Shown: one piece after another, positions 350 to 26,693 of the stretch
How positions within the stretch are numbered: the stretch's first letter is position 1
Layout of the letters: every line of letters starts with the position of its first letter
DNA from: an uncultured Oscillochloris sp.
GTDB lineage: Bacteria > Chloroflexota > Chloroflexia > Chloroflexales > Chloroflexaceae
Direction: 5' to 3'
Length of the DNA stretch: 34,653 nucleotides
Assembly (NCBI GenBank): GCA_903920315.1
Contig: CAIXLU010000233.1
Coordinates: 1 to 34,653, forward strand
The notes under the pieces: generated by a model
The model's input: only the letters and a program-made list of their open reading frames with translations
Told to the model about the DNA's origin: nothing
Database searches by the model: none
Translations under genes and position numbers: made by a program

Positions 350-571
350 CTTGTAGCGGTTCGCCGCGATGGGCCTGTACTGACCAGACTCAGGCTCGCA
401 AGAGCCTACGCACAACGGGTCATGACACCTTTCTGGTGCGTCTGCCAGCCGGAAGCTCTGTCGTCTGCGATCACACCCGCCTGGGGCAAGGGCGGGAGGT
501 CGCAGGCTCGACAAGCCCGATGTGCATTGTCGAGGCGAACATTCTCCCGCAAGGGACTGAGGAGTAATCCT
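350..571 (+). ncRNA. Putative omega RNA (HEARO-type) of the IscB system
   Basis: About 220 bases lie between the left hairpin and the iscB start, with no convincing gene. They hold several stable stems: 476-481 with 491-496; 507-514 with 527-534 (8 perfect pairs, 12-base loop); and 545-548 with 553-556 closed by a GCAA tetraloop. In known IscB loci the guide RNA scaffold, described earlier as the HEARO motif, is encoded directly upstream of iscB, with the guide at its 5' end derived from or next to the element's left edge. Position and structure fit. The 5' end, guide and fold are inferred and not aligned to a covariance model. Confidence 0.65.
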
Positions 572-574
572 TCA

Positions 575-1873
575 ATGGTTTTTGTTTTAAGCCACGACCG
601 GAAGCCGCTCGACCCCACCAGCCACCGGCGGGCGGGCCTGCTGTTGAAGAAGGGGCGGGCCGCCGTCTTTCGGCGCTACCCGTTCACCATCATCCTCAAA
701 GACCGGCTCGCCGCCGAGAGCGTCACCCACCCCCATCGGTTGAAGCTCGACCCTGGCAGCAAGACCACCGGGATCGCGGTGGTGGCTGAAGACTTCGGCA
801 AGCTCAGTCGAGGCACGACCGGGCGCGTCGTCTGGGCGGGCGAGCTGACCCACCGAGGACAGGCCATCCGCGACGCCCTGCTCAGTCGGCGGGCCAGCCG
901 CCGCAGTCGGCGACAGCGCAAGACCCGCTACCGCCAGCCCCGCTTCCTCAACCGGCGGCGGCCCGAGGGCTGGCTGGCCCCGTCGCTCCAGCATCGGGTC
1001 GATACGACGCTCACCTGGGTCAGAAGGCTGCTGCGCGTGGTGCCAGTCGCGGCCATCAGCACCGAGCTGGTGCGCTTCGACACGCAGTTGCGTGAGAACG
1101 CCGAGATCAGCGGCGTCGAGTATCAGCAGGGCACGCTGGCCGGCTACGAGGTGCGTCAGTATCTCCTCGAAAAGTGGGGTCGCCGCTGCGCCTACTGCGG
1201 CGCGAAGGATACACCCTTGCAGGTCGAGCACATCCTCCCGAGGGCGCGGGGCGGCTCCGACCGCATCTCCAACCTCTCGCTCGCGTGCGAGCCGTGCAAC
1301 ATCAAGAAAGGCACGCAGACCGCCGAGGAGTTCGGCCACCCGGACATCCAGGCGCAGGCCCGCCGCCCACTGAAGGACGCTGCAGCGGTCAACACGACCC
1401 GCTGGGCTATGTATCAGCACCTCGTCGCCACCGGCCTGCCCGTGGAGGTCGGCACCGGCGGGCGCACGAAGTTCAACCGTACCTGCCTGGGGCTGGAGAA
1501 GGCCCACTGGCACGATGCCGCCTGCGTCGGGGCCAGCACGCCCGAGGCGCTGGACGTGCGCGGCGTGCGCCCGCTGCTGATCACGGCCACCGGCCACGGA
1601 AATCGCCAGATGGCGGGTCTCAACACGTACGGCTTTCCCATTCGGCACCGCCAGCGGGTCAAGCGCCACTTTGGCTTTCAGACCGGAGACATTGCACGTG
1701 CAACGGTCACGACCGGCACAAAGCAGGGTGTCTATAGTGGGCGGGTGGCCGTGCGCGCCAGCGGGGCATTCAACATCACCACCACCAGCGCGAAGATCCA
1801 GGGACTCAATCACCGATTCTTTCGCACTGTCCATCGATCTGACGGGTACACCTATACCGCCGCATTGGGCTAA
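575..1873 (+). CDS. iscB: IscB, RNA-guided HNH/RuvC nuclease (Cas9 ancestor family)
   Basis: The start is the ATG at 575, with ggag at 561-564, giving 432 residues, typical for IscB; longer upstream readings run through the RNA region. The N-terminal PLMP-type domain reads MVFVLSHDRKPLDP, so the name motif is PLDP here. RuvC-I has Asp59 (LDPGSKTTG). An arginine-rich bridge helix spans about 104-128. RuvC-II has Glu164 (ISTELVRFD). The HNH domain has Cys205, Cys208, His219 (VEHI) and the Cys238/Cys241 pair. RuvC-III has His313-Asp314. The C-terminal region to about 400 matches the target-adjacent-motif interaction part of the family. Every catalytic residue expected for both nuclease centres is present, so the protein is probably active with the upstream RNA. 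No TnpA transposase lies nearby, so the element is probably non-autonomous. Confidence 0.95.
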   Translation: MVFVLSHDRKPLDPTSHRRAGLLLKKGRAAVFRRYPFTIILKDRLAAESVTHPHRLKLDPGSKTTGIAVVAEDFGKLSRGTTGRVVWAGELTHRGQAIRDALLSRRASRRSRRQRKTRYRQPRFLNRRRPEGWLAPSLQHRVDTTLTWVRRLLRVVPVAAISTELVRFDTQLRENAEISGVEYQQGTLAGYEVRQYLLEKWGRRCAYCGAKDTPLQVEHILPRARGGSDRISNLSLACEPCNIKKGTQTAEEFGHPDIQAQARRPLKDAAAVNTTRWAMYQHLVATGLPVEVGTGGRTKFNRTCLGLEKAHWHDAACVGASTPEALDVRGVRPLLITATGHGNRQMAGLNTYGFPIRHRQRVKRHFGFQTGDIARATVTTGTKQGVYSGRVAVRASGAFNITTTSAKIQGLNHRFFRTVHRSDGYTYTAALG

Positions 1874-2367: not shown

Positions 2368-3720
2368 ATGAAGGTAGGACGCAACGACCCCTGCCCCTGC
2401 GGCAGTGGCAAGAAGTATAAGAAGTGCTGCCTGTCCAAGGACGAGGCATCCGCACGTCAGGCCGCCAAAGGGTTGGCCGAGACGGTGCGCGCGCTGGAGG
2501 TCAACCCGCCGAACTTCCCGAGGCAATTCGCCGACTTCCCTGAGCTGCCTGAGCTGCCTGAGCCGAAGCCGCTCAGCCCTGAGGACGAGGCGCGCGTGTT
2601 GCTCTGGGAGGAGTTCGAGGATGCTGAGTCCGACGCTCTTCCGGCGCTCTTCCGGCGCGGCCTCGCTGAACACGTACTTGACGATGAACTTACCTTCGAG
2701 ATGTTGACCGCCATTTATGACGAGGGGCCTGAGTCGGCGATCTTGGGTCTCCTCGACGAGCTACGCCTCGCTCGGCCCGACCTCTATCAGGCGAGCGAGG
2801 CGTACTACCTCCAGTGGCAAATCGCCGATGCCGTAGACAATGGTCGCGTCGGGCAGATCCCCGAGCTTGCGGCGGCGATGGCCGGGCAGGCGGGCATTGA
2901 CCTGGACACGTTCTATGCCGTGCGCGACCACTTAGCCTACCACGGGCACCTCGCCTTGGTCGCCGACATGATGCAACAGGCATGGCCGCTTGTGCGCGAC
3001 TCGGATGAGTATCTCGAAGGGGCCGATGTAGAGTTCGCCGCCGAGGGCCAGCAACTCACGCTCCTCGCCTACCTTGCACGCGCCGACGCGCCGCGCACCA
3101 ACGACCCTGAGCTTATCACAGAACTGGAGCGCTTCGCCCCGGTTGACGGCGAGTCGCTCAGCGACCTGTTCGCGCTGCTCACCGGCGGGTCGGAGGACAC
3201 ATGGGATCGTGCGGGCCGAATCGACGACGAGCAGATCAATCGGCTGAGCCTGCGCTTCCAGGGCGAGCTGTGGCGCGCCGAGGGTGTCGCGCTTAGCCGA
3301 GGCGAACTGGCCCGCACCACCCTCGTCATCTACATCGCCGACAGGCGCGCCGGGCGGATCGGCCGGGTCGCGCACCCGCCAAAGGCGAAGGGGAAGCCGC
3401 AGGCCACAGGCACAGCGGCTGCGGCGAGCTTGCTCGTCCCTGACCGCACTACCCTGAACCACTTCCTATCGCAGATGTTCGACCCGCTCACCTCAGCCTA
3501 CTACGAGGCTATCGCTACGCTTGAGCTCACCCCGGCCTGGCTGCGCTTTCTCCAGGCCCAGGAGCTGATCACCGCCGAGCAACGGGCAGCGGCCATGAAG
3601 GATCTGCGCCGACTGGTGCTAGAGTTGGCACCAATCTGGGGGCAACGCGGTGCCGACCCAGCGGTGGGCGCGAATATCAAGGCTGCCTGGGAGCGTGACG
3701 ATGTGCCCGATGCCGCGTGA
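2368..3720 (+). CDS. SEC-C motif (zinc-binding) protein of unknown function
   Basis: The ATG at 2368 follows aaaggtgg at a good distance and gives 450 residues; an in-frame GTG at 2359 is less likely. Residues about 4-21 are a textbook SEC-C motif ([16 protein letters not shown]), the zinc-binding motif found at the SecA C-terminus and in many unrelated proteins, where it mediates protein contacts. The rest is mostly helical and acidic with no domain I recognise, apart from an Ala/Lys/Pro-rich patch about two-thirds along. It lies between a truncated gene and a truncated peptidase, and its last 20 bases overlap the reading frame of the latter, which suggests a rearranged locus. Its specific role is unknown. 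Confidence 0.8.
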
Positions 3721-5005
3721 GCCGAAGCTGGCGATTGATGCCACCCTGGAGCGTTGCGGGCCGGGCTGTAGCCACCGCACCTTTCTGAAGAATGCGGGCG
3801 CTCTGGCTAACGTCCAGGTTGGCGTTCTCTACGACGGGCCGGGGGTTAACGACACTCGCCGTTACACCCTCTTATCCGATGGCCGATGGGGCACCGTGAC
3901 TCTGTCCGAAGCCCGCATGGACGAGATGGAAACCCTGCGCGACTTTGTGCGCTGGGGTTATGCGACGTTCCAGAGCGATTATTACGCCCTGTCGCTGGTT
4001 GATCACGCTAACGGGGTGGTTGGTTTCGGTCAGGACAACAGCAGCGATAGTACGGGCAAGGCGTTTCTGACGCCGATTGAGTTGCGTACCGCGCTCCAGC
4101 AGGCCACCGACAACGGAGCCCGCAAGCTCGATGTGCTGCACGTTGATGCGTGTTCGTTCGGGTTGCTGGAGGACGCCGCGATTGCCGCCGATCTCGCTCA
4201 GTATATGATCGTCTCGCCCAACACCGGCTGGGGCGTTTTCGCCTACGACACCTACCTCCAAATCGCCGGACGCGCAACAAACCCGCATATCTACGCCCAC
4301 GATGTCGCCCAGGCATACGCCAGCGCCGTGCGGGCGTGGGGGCGGCCCTATACGATTTCGGTATTTGATATGGCCCGTTTTGCCGACCTGAACCAGCGAG
4401 TGAGTACGTTGGGCGACCAACTGCTCGCCTATACAAAAGTCAACACGGGTACCAATGTCAGTCAGTTACGCACGCTGCGCAATGAGAGTCAGAAGTACGA
4501 CTCTGGTGGCGTCTACCTGGAGATAGACCTAGAGGATAGCTACGTGGATCTAAGCGACTTTGCCACGCGGGTGAAGACCAGCGTGAGTGACGTGAACGTC
4601 CAGAGCGCGGCGGGCGCGGTGATTGACGCGGTGGCGGGGAATACAGCCCAGGGCGTTGCACCCTTTGTGATCTACGAAGACCACGCCTCGGGGCAGTTTG
4701 TGGGCTACGACCCGTTCCAGGGCCGAGATCGGAGTTTCACGGTGACGCTGGAACAGGCAACGGGGCTGGCGATCTTTTACCCACCGCGCAGCAGCAGCAG
4801 TAGCACCTACAATGCCTATGTGGAACACCGCCTGTTCGACACGACACGCGACAGCGGCTGGACGCGCTTTCTCGCGCAGGGCATACCGCCGCAACTGAGT
4901 GGTGACCCATCGCCAATGCCAAACGATGTTTTGATCCCGCCGTTCAATCTGAGTGTACAATCATCCATCCCGCAGCGGGTTTTCTTGCCGGTGATTGTGC
5001 GCTGA
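3701..5005 (+). CDS. Clostripain-like (C11 family) cysteine peptidase, 5'-truncated
   Basis: From the ATG at 3701 the product has 434 residues. The C11 catalytic dyad is visible: His102 in SLVDHANG and Cys151 in HVDACSFG, with [14 protein letters not shown] and [12 protein letters not shown] as family landmarks before them. Normal relatives start with a signal peptide and a segment of the type fMLYldgDNdL; both are absent. The reading opens inside the end of the SEC-C gene with [11 protein letters not shown], so the 5' end has been replaced. The C-terminus carries a low-complexity Ser stretch and ends [10 protein letters not shown], a tail shared with two other secreted proteins in this window. 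Without a signal peptide it should not be exported, so it is probably a decaying gene despite intact catalytic residues. Confidence 0.75.
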
Positions 5006-5012
5006 CGTGAGA

Positions 5013-5047
5013 ATAGCCGATAGCCGATAGCCGATAGCCGATAGCCG
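5013..5047. repeat. Heptamer tandem repeat (atagccg)x5
   Basis: Five perfect copies of atagccg begin 7 bases after the peptidase stop codon. The flanks, gtgaga on the left and ggacaccagcg on the right, resemble those of four other arrays of the same heptamer in this window (8722, 19461, 20860, 22146). Confidence 0.95.
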
Positions 5048-5110
5048 GACACCAGCGACCACTCATGGAGCAAAAGTCACCCCGGCGTCATGTCACGCCG
5101 AGCGACACCC

Positions 5111-5258: not shown

Positions 5259-7988
5259 TTATTCCCGCACCGGCACGATCAGATCCGCAACTCGCATCAG
5301 CGGCTGGAGCGCCGCCCAGTAGTAGGGATGATCGTAGCCTGATGCCCGCACGTTGGCCTGGGCCTGCTGGATTGCTGAGCCGAGTCCAACACCACTACGC
5401 AACGCCCGGTAGCAGCCCTCGACGAAGATCCGCGCCGCCTCGGCGTCAATCTGCCAGAGTCCGGCAACCACTGCCGTCACTCCGGCGGCCAGAAATGAGC
5501 CGGAGAGTGCCAGGGCGAGTCCTCCCAATGGCGCAACGATGTTGGTTTCACAGGCGCTCAATACCACCAACGCCGTGCCGGTCAAGTTCAGATTGAACAC
5601 GTCGGCCAGCAGCAGCGGCCCATCGGCCAGGGTAATCGCCGAGAGCAGCGGTTGCTGGGCATTTAGCCGTCCGTGGGCGCTGATATGCAGCAGCGCTGCG
5701 CCACTCGCCCCAGCCAGATCGCCACAGGTGGCCTGCGGCACGATCCGCGCCGTGGGGAAGATCTGCGCATAGGCGGCCAGTTCCGCCGCCACCTGTGGCG
5801 CAATCCCCGCGTCGGCGCAGCCCAGAGCCAGCGGCGGGCCAGATGCGACCGGAGGCAGATCCAGGGCCAGCACCGCCAGGGACGGCACCAGACTCAGGGT
5901 GTGCTGCTGGCCCAGGTACGGTGTTGTCGGGCTGGTGCGATCATAAAACGCGGCCCAGGGCAAGTCGGCCAACGCCCCGTCGGGGGCGAGGATAAGCGGT
6001 GCATCAGCCAACAGCGGGCCAAGCGGCGCGATCAGGAGATCGTGCAGTTCGGCAAAGATCATGTCCGTGGCGCGGCGCTGGGTTAGTGCACATGATTGTT
6101 GTACGCTGGGCGACAGATTCGCAAGCGTCTGCAGCCGCAGCCCCAGACGCTCAGCAACATCGCGGATCGCCGCCGTTTTGCCCAAGGTAATCCAGCACGG
6201 CGCGGCGGATCGCGTCAGCACACACGCCATCGCCTGACGCTCGCCGAGCATATACTCGACCGCCACCGCCCCGGTGGGAATATGGGCCTGGATCGCTTCG
6301 AGCGAAGGGAATGGATGCGAGATCCGCTCCGGTCGCACGGCCCGCAGCGTCAGCATCGCGTCACGTATATGGCCCTGGCAGATCGCACGTTCCGTCTCGC
6401 CATCTGCGTCGCGGAGTCGCTCTTCCCAGAAAATCAGCGCGGTACGGGCCGTCTGCCATGCCGGGTGGGGTGATTCCTGCGGTCGGGGCGCGATCAGATC
6501 GGCCCAGATTCCTCCCTTCATCGTCAGCAGGGCATCGAGGGCCAGGGCGGGTCGTCCTTCGCGCAGATACGCCTCGGTCAGCCGTGTATGCAGCAGCGAC
6601 TGGTGGGTGAGGGCGCGGGCTTTCAGCTCCTCAACCGGCATGGTTCTGCGCATTGAGGCCGCCAAATCGGCGGCGCGCTGGAGGGCCGCGCTGACCGCAC
6701 GGCCCCGCACCACCGTCGCCAGACCCTCCAGCGCCTGCTGTTCTAGTCCCGGCTGACCACGATTCGCCGCCTGAGCCGCAATCGTCCGGTAGCGCGGCGC
6801 GGCATCCTGACGCATCAAGGCTGCCAGATCGGCGGCGATCATACGTGCGTGGAGTGCGATAACGGGAACATCGAGCATGTCGAGTGTCGCGACGGCCTCG
6901 TCTGCCTGGGACAGCAGCGTCGCCCGCTCTGCCGCAGGCTGAAGCGCCGGGTGGGATTGCAGTGCGGCCAGAAGCGTGCGCAGCGCGGGCGAGGCCCGAT
7001 CCGCCAACGCAACCGCCTGTCCCCGCACGATCTCGCGGTCGCGCACCAGCCAGCGGATCTGATCAAAGACCCATGGCGGCAGGACGCGCTCGGCGGTCAG
7101 GGCCAGCCGCAGCGCGAGCAGGGATGCCTCAACGCTCTCTTCAACGAACGGGTGCGCCGCAAACAGATGCGCGGCGGCGCGGGCCGACCGATAGCCCTCC
7201 TCGTACATGCCCAACCGCTCGTAGAGCGTGGCCTCCTCAACAGCCACAGTCGCCGCCTCAACCGCCAGTTCGGGAGGAAAAGAGGATCGCGCCTCGTGCA
7301 GCAGGCGCAGCGTCCGCATTAACTTATCCTGCACGATGCTCAGGTGAGCCTGATTCAGCGCCACCCGTGCCACCAGATCCGCGTAATCCTCGGCCAATGC
7401 CAGCGCACGGGCGCGATCAAGCGCATCTGCCGCCAGCCCCAGTTCACCCAGGAACATGCCGGCAAACGCCTGATTAATGCAGGCCATGATCGCCGCATCC
7501 GCATGCTCGCAGTGCAGCGAAACCTGCTCGGCCTCACGGGCATAGGCGAGCATCTCGCGGTAGCGCGATCCGCGACCCTCCAGATCCGAACGGTTGATCA
7601 GCAGCGAGGGAAGTCGTTCAATCAGCCCGTGGGTACGCAGCGTTGCCTCGGCCTCCGCCAGCGCCGCAACCCCGGCGTCAACCTGGCCCAACCGAGCCAG
7701 GAGCGGCCCTCGGTTGACCTGTATGCGCGCCGCCAGAACCGGATCATCACGGTAAGAGGTGTAAGCGGCGTCGAAGTGCGCCAGTGCCGCCGCACTGTCC
7801 CGATGCATGTCGGCCAGCCCCGCGCACCAGTGGGCCTCCGCCGCATCGGTAGGCAGACCGCTGGCCTGAGCGATGGCCCACGCCTGCAGGATCAACGCCT
7901 GCACCTGTTCGTAGGTGCCCTGACTACACGCCGCAACAATCGCGTCTTTGAGTTGCTGGAAGGCCGGGTTCGCGCTAGTGCGGCGCAT
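5259..7988 (-). CDS. TPR-CHAT domain protease-like protein
   Basis: The ATG at 7988 gives 909 residues; it overlaps the upstream gene's stop by 14 bases, so translation is probably coupled. Residues about 10-500 are alanine-rich helical repeats of the tetratricopeptide type. The C-terminal third is a CHAT domain, a caspase-fold peptidase: His about 772 in LLHISAHGRL and Cys about 813 in VVLSACET are the expected dyad, followed by the GGLALALSGSFLAAG and GLWQIDAEAA signatures typical of CHAT. No signal peptide or membrane segment is seen, so it should be cytosolic. In other bacteria TPR-CHAT proteins are sensor-gated proteases (for example Csx29 of type III-E CRISPR). Here its neighbours are a sigma-like factor and a putative regulator, which are plausible partners or substrates. 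Confidence 0.9.
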   Translation of the reverse strand: MRRTSANPAFQQLKDAIVAACSQGTYEQVQALILQAWAIAQASGLPTDAAEAHWCAGLADMHRDSAAALAHFDAAYTSYRDDPVLAARIQVNRGPLLARLGQVDAGVAALAEAEATLRTHGLIERLPSLLINRSDLEGRGSRYREMLAYAREAEQVSLHCEHADAAIMACINQAFAGMFLGELGLAADALDRARALALAEDYADLVARVALNQAHLSIVQDKLMRTLRLLHEARSSFPPELAVEAATVAVEEATLYERLGMYEEGYRSARAAAHLFAAHPFVEESVEASLLALRLALTAERVLPPWVFDQIRWLVRDREIVRGQAVALADRASPALRTLLAALQSHPALQPAAERATLLSQADEAVATLDMLDVPVIALHARMIAADLAALMRQDAAPRYRTIAAQAANRGQPGLEQQALEGLATVVRGRAVSAALQRAADLAASMRRTMPVEELKARALTHQSLLHTRLTEAYLREGRPALALDALLTMKGGIWADLIAPRPQESPHPAWQTARTALIFWEERLRDADGETERAICQGHIRDAMLTLRAVRPERISHPFPSLEAIQAHIPTGAVAVEYMLGERQAMACVLTRSAAPCWITLGKTAAIRDVAERLGLRLQTLANLSPSVQQSCALTQRRATDMIFAELHDLLIAPLGPLLADAPLILAPDGALADLPWAAFYDRTSPTTPYLGQQHTLSLVPSLAVLALDLPPVASGPPLALGCADAGIAPQVAAELAAYAQIFPTARIVPQATCGDLAGASGAALLHISAHGRLNAQQPLLSAITLADGPLLLADVFNLNLTGTALVVLSACETNIVAPLGGLALALSGSFLAAGVTAVVAGLWQIDAEAARIFVEGCYRALRSGVGLGSAIQQAQANVRASGYDHPYYWAALQPLMRVADLIVPVRE

Positions 7989-8661
7989 CACCAAGCACAA
8001 TCGGCGGAGTCAGGAGGATGCCCGCATCGAGGGCGATACGCACATGGTAACTGCCAACCGGGAGGTTTTCAAAGGTAAAAAAACCACCATCGTCGGTCGT
8101 GCGCGTGCGACGCCCGCCATACGGCGTGCGCAGCACCACCGCCGTAAACCCTAGCGGCTCGCCGTGCTGCTCCAGGTAGCCACGCAACCGCCAGGAATCA
8201 GCCGCAGTCGGGTGGATGCGGACAACCACATGCGCCGCAAGTTCCGCCGAAACCAGCACCGTCCCCCCTCTCGGATCATCGCGGTCGCTCTTGGTTGTAA
8301 AACCGCCAACCGGCAACGTGGCCAGGAAGAGCGATGGAGCATCCCGGCGCTTGGTGTCAGTGCCTTCCAACAAATAAGCCATGCGGGCGCGACCAGACGC
8401 GCTCATCCGCAGGTAGGCAGCAACCCGCAACTGCTGGCGGGCCGTAGCCTGACCAGCGGCAACATCAACCATATCCTGCGCACTGGGAATCACCGTTTGC
8501 GGAGCCAGAGCGTGCAGTCGCTCGTTGGCACGCGACAGGAACGCCAGTTGGTGCTGGATCGCGGGGGAATGTGCGAGAGCCTCACCCACATGCGGCGACC
8601 GCTCCCCCTTCACGTATGCCTGGAGTTCGCCTTCCTCAATCGCCTCATTGGTGTTATCCAC
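7975..8661 (-). CDS. Putative anti-sigma-like regulator with C-terminal carboxypeptidase-regulatory-like domain
   Basis: The start is a GTG at 8661 with gagg at good spacing; 228 residues. The N-terminal part (EEGELQAYVKGERS, then a helical stretch) resembles the start of anti-sigma domains, but the zinc-binding HxxxCxxC motif is absent. The middle is helical and ends near residue 120. The last 80 residues look like a small beta-sandwich: the stretch RTRTTDDGGFFTFENLPVGSYHV is typical of carboxypeptidase-regulatory or SdrD-B-like folds. No membrane segment is seen. It lies between a sigma-like factor and the CHAT gene and overlaps the latter. A role as sigma inhibitor, adaptor or CHAT substrate is inferred from position only. 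Confidence 0.6.
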   Translation of the reverse strand: MDNTNEAIEEGELQAYVKGERSPHVGEALAHSPAIQHQLAFLSRANERLHALAPQTVIPSAQDMVDVAAGQATARQQLRVAAYLRMSASGRARMAYLLEGTDTKRRDAPSLFLATLPVGGFTTKSDRDDPRGGTVLVSAELAAHVVVRIHPTAADSWRLRGYLEQHGEPLGFTAVVLRTPYGGRRTRTTDDGGFFTFENLPVGSYHVRIALDAGILLTPPIVLGDAPH

Positions 8662-8721
8662 CGCATTACCTCATTTTAACCACCAATAAAACCAGTCGCT
8701 CAGATCTGTACTAAAGTGAAA

Positions 8722-8749
8722 ATAGCCGATAGCCGATAGCCGATAGCCG
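8722..8749. repeat. Heptamer tandem repeat (atagccg)x4
   Basis: Four perfect atagccg copies lie in the 175-base gap between the sigma-like gene and the regulator gene. The left flank is gtgaaa and the right flank ataatcggacatcagcgg, close to the other arrays. The array therefore splits an otherwise operon-like gene row. Confidence 0.95.
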
Positions 8750-8836
8750 ATAATCGGACATCAGCGGCCATTGTGATCGGGTGTTGTACGCGAATCGCAT
8801 GGTTATCTGAACCAGACTCACGCCGCGTTTCCCAGG

Positions 8837-9523
8837 TCACCCCTCAAACAGATCGCGCACATCAGGAAGCGTACTGAGATAACGGATGCTGCGCTCAACC
8901 GAGCGGAAGACCTGTGATTTAGCAACATCCCAGCCCTGCTGTCTCAGCGCCTCAACCGTCTCATCAGGCGAAAGATCCAGCCCAAAGCGCAGACGGAAAA
9001 TCTCGCGGTCTACCGGCTTGCGAATGCGCTCTAGCAGCCACTCGAAGCGCAGGAGCTTCTCTAATTCTGCAATATCCGAGTGCGGGTCAGCGATCTCATC
9101 GCCGGACTCGGCCTGAGCCTGCTCAATTGACACGGTGAATGAACCAGATTCAGCGCGGATCTGATCGTAGGCCAGATTCCTGCCAGTAATTTTGAGGTAG
9201 GCCCGATAGGCGACAAAGGGCTTAGGCGGCGGAGAATTGATCACATACGGACTCTCACGGTTACGCATTTCGACCGTAATCTGGAGCAGGACGTCCTGAA
9301 TCCAGTCATCAATCACATCGCGTTGCCGCAACGGATACTGCCGACGAACCAGCGGCTCACTGACCTGAATAAGCGCCGTGATCGCCGGATCATCGTGAGT
9401 GACAGCCCGCTGCAAAATCGCATCACAGCTCGTCGTATCGCGCTCCCCGCGCAATCGAAAGCGCTGGAGTTGCTGCTCACACGCCGCGCAAAGGGAATCC
9501 AAGGTGGGTGGTTCGAGTGACAT
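8837..9523 (-). CDS. Sigma-70-like factor (ECF-type)
   Basis: 228 residues from the ATG at 9523. Residues about 45-125 fit sigma region 2: a helix with DVIDDWIQDVLLQITVEM corresponds to the core-binding helix, and ITGRNLAYDQIR to the helix reading the -10 element. Residues about 160-218 fit region 4, with VDREIFRLRFGLDLSPDETVEAL followed by a probable recognition helix (AKSQVFRSVERSIRYL). An unusual N-terminus holds LCAACEQQLQRF, with a CxxC pair. Divergence from standard ECF factors is considerable, so promoter specificity cannot be predicted. It starts 20 bases after the antitoxin-like gene stop and heads the regulator/CHAT genes, suggesting it controls or is controlled by them. Confidence 0.7.
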   Translation of the reverse strand: MSLEPPTLDSLCAACEQQLQRFRLRGERDTTSCDAILQRAVTHDDPAITALIQVSEPLVRRQYPLRQRDVIDDWIQDVLLQITVEMRNRESPYVINSPPPKPFVAYRAYLKITGRNLAYDQIRAESGSFTVSIEQAQAESGDEIADPHSDIAELEKLLRFEWLLERIRKPVDREIFRLRFGLDLSPDETVEALRQQGWDVAKSQVFRSVERSIRYLSTLPDVRDLFEG

Positions 9524-9543
9524 ACATACCCATAACTAAGCAA

Positions 9544-9903
9544 TTACCGGTTGATGCGCTTCGCTGGTGTGCGTGCCGTCTTTGCGCGACGCTTCTTTTC
9601 GGGAATCAGTTGAATCAGTGCCCGCAACGCCGCATTCACTGCCTCGGCATCACGGAAATACATGTACACATCGGGGTCAAGAGTAATTGTTCTCTCTGGC
9701 TTTATGACATGTTGGATAAGCGTTGTTCCATCAGATTGATTGACGTGAATGGTATAGCCATCACGCATACGCTGATAATACGCGCCACGCACACCCACCT
9801 TCCCAGAGAAATCATACTCAGGAAGCATATCGCCATCTTCGGGTGGTACTACTTTACTTTTGTGTATTGCTCTTCGCCTTTTCTTCATCCCACTCAAATA
9901 CAA
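9544..9903 (-). CDS. Small antitoxin-like protein of unknown function
   Basis: 119 residues from the ATG at 9903; an ATG five codons later (9888) is an alternative. It has a basic N-terminus and C-terminus, and the core DMLPEYDFSGKVGVRGAYY followed later by LDPDVYMYFRDAEAVNAALRALI. This core is common in small proteins that I know as putative type II antitoxins or orphan regulators in filamentous bacteria. No toxin gene of recognisable type adjoins it; the next gene, 20 bases away on the same strand, is the sigma-like factor. Function is uncertain. Confidence 0.6.
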   Translation of the reverse strand: MYLSGMKKRRRAIHKSKVVPPEDGDMLPEYDFSGKVGVRGAYYQRMRDGYTIHVNQSDGTTLIQHVIKPERTITLDPDVYMYFRDAEAVNAALRALIQLIPEKKRRAKTARTPAKRINR

Positions 9904-19460: not shown

Positions 19461-19523
19461 ATAGCCGATAGCCGATAGCCGATAGCCGATAGCCGATAGC
19501 CGATAGCCGATAGCCGATAGCCG
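19461..19523. repeat. Heptamer tandem repeat (atagccg)x9
   Basis: Nine perfect copies, the longest array of this heptamer here. It lies 7 bases after the ParA-like stop codon, with left flank cgtgaa and right flank ggcatccacag resembling those of the other arrays. Confidence 0.97.
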
Positions 19524-19567
19524 GGCATCCACAGTTTGGGCTAATGCACCGCGTCCTGTTGCGGCAT

Positions 19568-19630
19568 ATCTGCAATCTGCAATCTGCAATCTAAAATCTA
19601 AAATCTAAAATCTAAAATCTAAAATCTGCA
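19568..19630. repeat. Heptamer tandem repeat of atctgca and atctaaa, 9 units
   Basis: The order is three atctgca, five atctaaa and one atctgca, all on a 7-base period over 63 bases. It ends exactly next to the stop codon (19631-19633, minus strand) of the next gene. Together with the atagccg array 44 bases away it fills most of the convergent intergenic gap. Confidence 0.95.
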
Positions 19631-26484: not shown

Positions 26485-26580
26485 AGCTCATCGGATCGGC
26501 GGCTGGGTTCCGGCGACCGGCCCCGGACTCCCGCCACCGATTATTAGACACTGGCGGTATCAACACATCCGGCACGATTT

Positions 26581-26636
26581 TCAGGTTTCAGGTTTCAGGT
26601 TTCAGGTTTCAGGTTTCAGGTTTCAGGTTTCAGGTT
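26581..26636. repeat. Heptamer tandem repeat (tcaggtt)x8
   Basis: Eight perfect copies of tcaggtt over 56 bases lie in the gap between recN and the ligase-like gene. It differs in sequence from the other heptamer families but keeps the same 7-base period. Confidence 0.97.
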
Positions 26637-26693
26637 GAGCGCATCAGAACACCAGATTCTGATATGAACGGTAAAGTATCTGCGACCCTTGTC

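Follow-up and report, generated by a model that had tools for sequence, protein, structure and literature searches.

A conserved sigma factor, anti-sigma-type regulator and TPR-CHAT protease gene row in Oscillochloris and other Chloroflexota, a possible CRISPR-independent switch

Contig CAIXLU010000233.1 of an uncultured Oscillochloris sp. (Chloroflexota; assembly GCA_903920315.1) carries a row of three genes which recurs in the same order in dozens of loci. The genes are called SIG, REG and CHAT here; the window is the whole stretch of 34,653 nucleotides that was analysed. All three lie on its minus strand. SIG (8837-9523; 228 residues, ATG start) encodes a divergent extracytoplasmic function (ECF) type sigma factor, REG (7975-8661; 228 residues, GTG start) a putative anti-sigma factor, and CHAT (5259-7988) a TPR-CHAT caspase-like protease. 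CHAT has 909 residues if read from the ATG at 7988 to the stop at 5259; an upstream TTG is an alternative start and gives 913 residues. The reading frames of REG and CHAT overlap by 14 bases. A preliminary description of this DNA had reported the three genes in this order on one strand, the overlap and the catalytic dyad of the 909-residue CHAT protein, all of which was confirmed. It had also proposed a circuit like that of Craspase, the type III-E CRISPR protease system, in a CRISPR-free setting. The products may form a cytoplasmic, CRISPR-independent switch in which CHAT cuts REG and so frees SIG; the chances that this reading is right are about even.

The row is kept at 65-90% identity within the genus, where contigs reach, and at 30-41% identity in other genera of the same family. 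REG profile matches occur in 79 of 400 Chloroflexota genomes, a count which takes in short anti-sigma factors and stand-alone beta domains. Twenty stretches with REG relatives were fetched; SIG adjoins REG in 19 of these and CHAT does so in 16. Rows span at least 12 Chloroflexota families (f1, f2, f3, f24, f31, f40, f46, f57, f59, f69, f83 and f86); the f31 row is seen only to the contig end, and the CHAT-linked locus of f59 (L086) has REG and CHAT but no SIG. A conserved neighbourhood in Chloroflexota was a check named in the preliminary description, and it is there. For a count that did not start from SIG or REG, the Csx29 model was run against the 400 genomes and gave 65 rows at E <1e-12. 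A REG or SIG profile match lies near at least 41 of these 65 best Csx29-like CHAT matches. Twelve of the remaining matches were fetched, and six of the twelve carry an alternative row made up of a canonical short ECF factor, a CarboxypepD-type regulator and CHAT (the sigma factor of L167 was recognised by eye from the sequence; no sigma factor was seen in L174).

The genome from which the window comes has 24 CHAT genes. Three further long-type CHAT genes (on C538, C251 and C88) adjoin a preceding SIG-REG or zinc-motif gene; around the other 20, the stretches that were fetched (several of them short contigs) hold no relative of SIG or REG. It is scarcely credible that chance alone has placed three unrelated genes side by side. 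Nothing speaks for this beyond the weak sigma score of the single window sequence, and it is already refuted by conservation: the order is the same across families, there are fusions and overlapping ends, and the 20 other CHAT genes of the genome lack such neighbours.

The sigma-70-like identity of SIG, proposed earlier, is real. Taken by itself, the window protein supports it only weakly (TIGR02937 E 5e-5, short of the curated cut-off); the family profile and the fold make it firm. TIGR02937 is matched by 14 of 19 SIG relatives, and the family profile matches the SigK, SigW and RpoE structures in the PDB. When a fused relative was modelled, its sigma half matched sigmaE (1or7; Z 9.8, root-mean-square deviation (rmsd) 2.9, 99 residues), and the model also matched further ECF factors across regions 2 and 4. 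At the family level SIG is firmly an ECF sigma factor with regions 2 and 4 only, by profile and fold. It has an N-terminal extension in which C15 and C33 are invariant in 19 SIG sequences (window 9425-9481 spans residues 15 to 33). These cysteines sit ahead of the sigma fold and where it begins; a metal or redox site is possible. Upstream of SIG there is an extended -10-like element, TGCTACAAT, which is common to four other loci of the genus and looks like a housekeeping promoter. An ECF-type promoter motif for SIG targets was sought and none was found; a promoter scan scored no better than shuffles.

REG is of anti-sigma descent and belongs to a soluble anti-sigma factor family. In an alignment of 21 relatives there are two tandem HxxxCxxC zinc motifs, each in a short helical module, followed by a variable linker and a CarboxypepD_reg-like domain. 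Family members match zf-HC2 (PF13490) in 15 cases out of 21, and the family profile matches the solved anti-sigma factors ChrR (E 3e-4) and DdvA (E 9e-4). Descent from anti-sigma factors is argued for by these motifs and matches together with a two-module model, and the anti-sigma-like start noted earlier in the 228-residue protein is thereby borne out. The AlphaFold model of the window REG has a mean predicted local distance difference test (pLDDT) score of 82.7. Model and alignment to the HxxxCxxC regions of relatives place two tandem three-helix anti-sigma-type modules at residues 10-100 (8362-8634, minus strand), with helices at 10-17, 23-31 and 33-52 and then at 61-68, 74-86 and 88-100. 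Residues 101-132 (8266-8361, minus strand) form a low-confidence, length-variable linker, with pLDDT <50 at residues 106-128; the greatest length variation among relatives falls here, and it is a candidate cleavage zone. Residues 133-225 (7987-8265, minus strand) form a beta-sandwich of CarboxypepD_reg or Cna-B-like type (PF13620 E 1e-6, under the cut-off), the structural matches of which are beta-sandwich domains (Z up to 9.9, rmsd 2.2, 77 residues). When the REG model was used for a fold search, hits ranked for the beta domain only. No anti-sigma factor was listed, which carries no weight because the search hardly probed the helical part.

CHAT is clearly a CHAT protease: its CHAT domain (5304-6050, minus strand) matches PF12770 at E 5e-42 with 144.7 bits against a cut-off of 24. 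The catalytic residues are His776 (5673-5675) and Cys817 (5550-5552) in the 913-residue numbering. Loss of the dyad in homologues had been named as a point that would count against the proposal; the dyad is invariant in 27 of 27 REG-linked CHAT homologues, and catalysis therefore matters. Pfam calls no TPRs in the window CHAT protein; the family profile matches TPR structures. CHAT proteins are also present in plasmid records of Pseudomonadota, Cyanobacteriota and Actinomycetota and on one Chloroflexota plasmid. Six plasmid CHAT loci examined by profile have no SIG or REG nearby, and a REG search of the plasmid records gave no match. As a separate observation, residues 7-47 of 8rot_B, a solved CHAT protein of 991 residues, match the anti-sigma module profile (E 0.009), hinting at the sequence level that an anti-sigma module is fused directly to CHAT elsewhere. 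A literature search for a paper on 8rot found none.

SIG and REG are a single protein in six loci (L042, L043; L077, L079, L080 and L081), two of them in the same genome as the window, and CHAT follows in all six. Contig C538 of this genome carries such a fusion. PMC8999054 reviews fused ECF factors thought to be released by cutting. As sigma factor and anti-sigma factor share one chain in the six SIG-REG fusions, cutting would be a natural route of release; a cleavage mechanism is best argued for from these fusions and from the strictly conserved dyad. In such a mechanism, the helical anti-sigma modules of REG would bind SIG and hold it inactive, and the beta-sandwich would dock or present REG to the protease. 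An internal trigger, sensed by the TPR half of CHAT, would activate the protease, which would then cleave REG, probably within the linker that separates the anti-sigma modules from the beta domain. Freed SIG would transcribe a regulon, which in relatives plausibly includes the exported subtilase or clostripain adjoining CHAT.

The beta domain of REG probably serves the protease. It is tied to it because CHAT adjoins REG with a beta domain in 30 of 36 fetched loci, compared with none of six for REG-like proteins without this domain (Fisher p 2e-4, not corrected for relatedness and from loci not randomly drawn); the association is a lead. The short REG-like anti-sigma factors without a beta domain adjoin SIG relatives and never CHAT in the six fetched loci.

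A protease gene of subtilase or clostripain type is often found 3' of CHAT. A subtilase follows CHAT in 14 loci by profile. Those of L163 and L170 have intact D/H/S motifs, a prodomain and a hydrophobic N-terminus; only the serine motif was found in other CHAT-linked subtilases. A clostripain-type protein follows CHAT in six loci; most of these proteins have propeller repeats and a signal-like N-terminus. Several of the subtilases and clostripains have the look of exported proteins, which makes them likelier to be an output of the system than a direct substrate of CHAT.

An ordinary SIG/REG pair could instead be released by binding or conformational change, in which case CHAT and the subtilase or clostripain would be SIG-controlled effectors and REG would stay uncut. 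This is rather less probable than cleavage of REG but is a serious alternative. It fits the many loci with a protease gene after CHAT, the TPR-CHAT and subtilase pairs without a sigma factor nearby, and the REG-type anti-sigma factors that occur without CHAT. However, a fused SIG-REG protein cannot dissociate by simple release and all six fusions adjoin CHAT; the REG beta domain is associated with CHAT; and CHAT usually follows REG immediately, often with overlapping ends, as is often the case with partners. Cleavage of REG and SIG control of these effectors could both be true.

Several points weigh against cleavage of REG by CHAT. REG-type anti-sigma factors with a beta domain and no adjoining CHAT are found in L085, L088, L092, L093, L108 and L118; other ways of release therefore exist. 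TPR-CHAT and subtilase pairs occur with no sigma factor or regulator found nearby in L168, L171 and L173. The model of a SIG-REG fusion has a predicted template modelling (pTM) score of only 0.55. The zinc ligands are lost in the window REG and its near relatives, which do not carry the HxxxCxxC motif of zinc anti-sigma (ZAS) factors. As the window REG is without any zinc ligands and the window SIG is divergent, the window copy might be drifting.

CHAT or a neighbouring protease might also degrade SIG itself and so keep the system off, with the middle gene not encoding an anti-sigma factor. This follows the proposal made for ECF54 sigma factors, which have carboxypeptidase, subtilase and CHAT neighbours and for which control by proteolysis of the sigma factor, without an anti-sigma factor, has been proposed from a like gene context (PMC8999054). 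It is improbable for the present row: in the family of the middle gene, zinc anti-sigma motifs are present and the profile matches anti-sigma factors of solved structure, and the middle gene is fused to SIG in six loci. The ECF54 'carboxypeptidase' gene is probably the supposedly missing anti-sigma factor. The preliminary description missed this published context (PMC8999054), as well as the downstream protease genes and the sigma-regulator fusions.

The window row itself has no subtilase. A clostripain-family (C11) protease gene (3650-5005, plus strand; PF03415 E 3e-17) is convergent to CHAT; in relatives, C11 genes sit directly after CHAT. By tblastn it covers residues 1185-1590 of a 1590-residue orthologue in a sister genome at 81% identity. 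It is without the first 1184 residues of the orthologue, the N-terminal two thirds with a signal peptide and kelch propellers. It is possible that this gene is a former partner of the row.

A solitary antitoxin-like gene (9544-9903, minus strand) lies 20 bases upstream of SIG, the distance given in the preliminary description, which had suggested that the gene may belong to the circuit. It has no Pfam or NCBIfam match. In a sister genome (L027:9475-10073) an intact BrnT toxin gene (PF04365 E 3e-17) lies ahead of the same antitoxin gene; only the first codons of BrnT are left in the window. The BrnT-BrnA insertion is found only in the window and this one sister genome, and other members of the genus are without the antitoxin-like gene. 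It is probably a BrnA-type antitoxin (BrnA by association) left after loss of BrnT. As a remnant of this insertion, it was rejected as a fourth part of the system.

Two further features of the window were noted. Intergenic arrays of the heptamer ATAGCCG are found at 5013-5054, at 8722-8763 (between SIG and REG) and at 19461-19530; other heptamer arrays are at 19568-19623 and 26579-26648. An IscB-like protein is encoded at 422-1873 (plus strand), with an RRXRR domain (PF14239 E 1e-70) and HNH nuclease domains; it is of the RNA-guided nuclease ancestor type.

In type III-E CRISPR, Csx29 cuts the sigma inhibitor Csx30 (PMC10028731). Membership of the row in this system was rejected: the window CHAT scores 38.7 bits against the Csx29 model, in the CHAT2 part only and with a cut-off of 300, and there is no array and no Cas7-11. 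No Cas genes are present among the scanned window genes, no CRISPR array was found in the window by repeat search, and no Csx29 above the cut-off was found in the 400 Chloroflexota genomes. No Csx30 match of REG was found by sequence in NCBIfam or the PDB. A wider CHAT profile matches both CHAT halves of solved Csx29-type chains (E 2e-11); by sequence comparison, Csx29 is a distant homologue of the window CHAT. The rest of the genome has type III CRISPR RAMP matches on other contigs, in separate frames of 224-664 residues, with no fused Cas7-11 among them; the term CRISPR-free therefore holds for the locus, not for the genome. The circuit of the preliminary description thus stands as to co-occurrence, an anti-sigma-type regulator, an intact dyad and the lack of a linked CRISPR effector, and falls as to the antitoxin.

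It is conceivable, if unlikely, that the Craspase circuit was assembled from a CRISPR-free sigma/anti-sigma/TPR-CHAT module, with Cas7-11 replacing the original trigger and with Csx29, Csx30 and CASP-sigma descending from the genes of the module or replacing them stepwise. Most of the best Csx29-like CHATs in Chloroflexota, at least 41 of 65, are sigma-linked, although no Csx30 similarity was detected.

If CHAT does cut REG, caspase-like control of transcription by anti-sigma cleavage is widespread and not a CRISPR speciality. The row would then offer natural protease-substrate pairs and a plausible source of the Craspase circuit, and would give a sigma group described without an anti-sigma factor both such a factor and a substrate. 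This genome encodes many TPR-CHAT proteins, most of them with no known substrate; the adjoining gene is a concrete candidate. No paper linking CHAT with anti-sigma factors outside CRISPR was found in the open-access full-text literature, subscription papers not being covered.

The row can be compared with several known systems. It matches the ECF54 context, by the description in PMC8999054, in that an ECF sigma factor lies beside a CarboxypepD_reg-type protein, a TPR-CHAT protein and, in relatives, a subtilase. Unlike ECF54 as described, the CarboxypepD-type gene here belongs to an anti-sigma family and is sometimes fused to the sigma factor. Should the two prove to be one system, what is new is the identification of the carboxypeptidase-type gene as that of an anti-sigma factor. 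REG is like the soluble zinc anti-sigma factors of ChrR type (RpoE-ChrR) in its N-terminal zinc anti-sigma-type module, C-terminal beta domain and cytoplasmic nature. It differs in having two tandem modules where ChrR has one and an Ig/Cna-B-like domain where ChrR has a cupin, in the loss of zinc ligands in the window copy, and in the protease gene which adjoins it. The six fusions are like the ECF52 and ECF36 types (PMC8999054), which have sigma factor and anti-sigma factor in one chain. ECF36 extensions contain transmembrane helices (PMC8999054), whereas the SIG-REG fusions have a soluble-looking double module and a beta domain, with a CHAT protease gene adjoining. Neighbourhoods of caspase, ECF and DUF1822 genes have also been described; their make-up is different (PMC8195603). 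Type III-E Craspase (Cas7-11, Csx29, Csx30 and CASP-sigma) likewise combines a TPR-CHAT protease, a two-part regulator and an ECF sigma factor, and its CHAT domains are distantly homologous to those described here; the present row differs in being without Cas7-11, a CRISPR array in the window, a Csx29 above the cut-off or detectable Csx30 similarity. The likeness to Craspase is thus one of functional logic and distant CHAT homology, not of membership.

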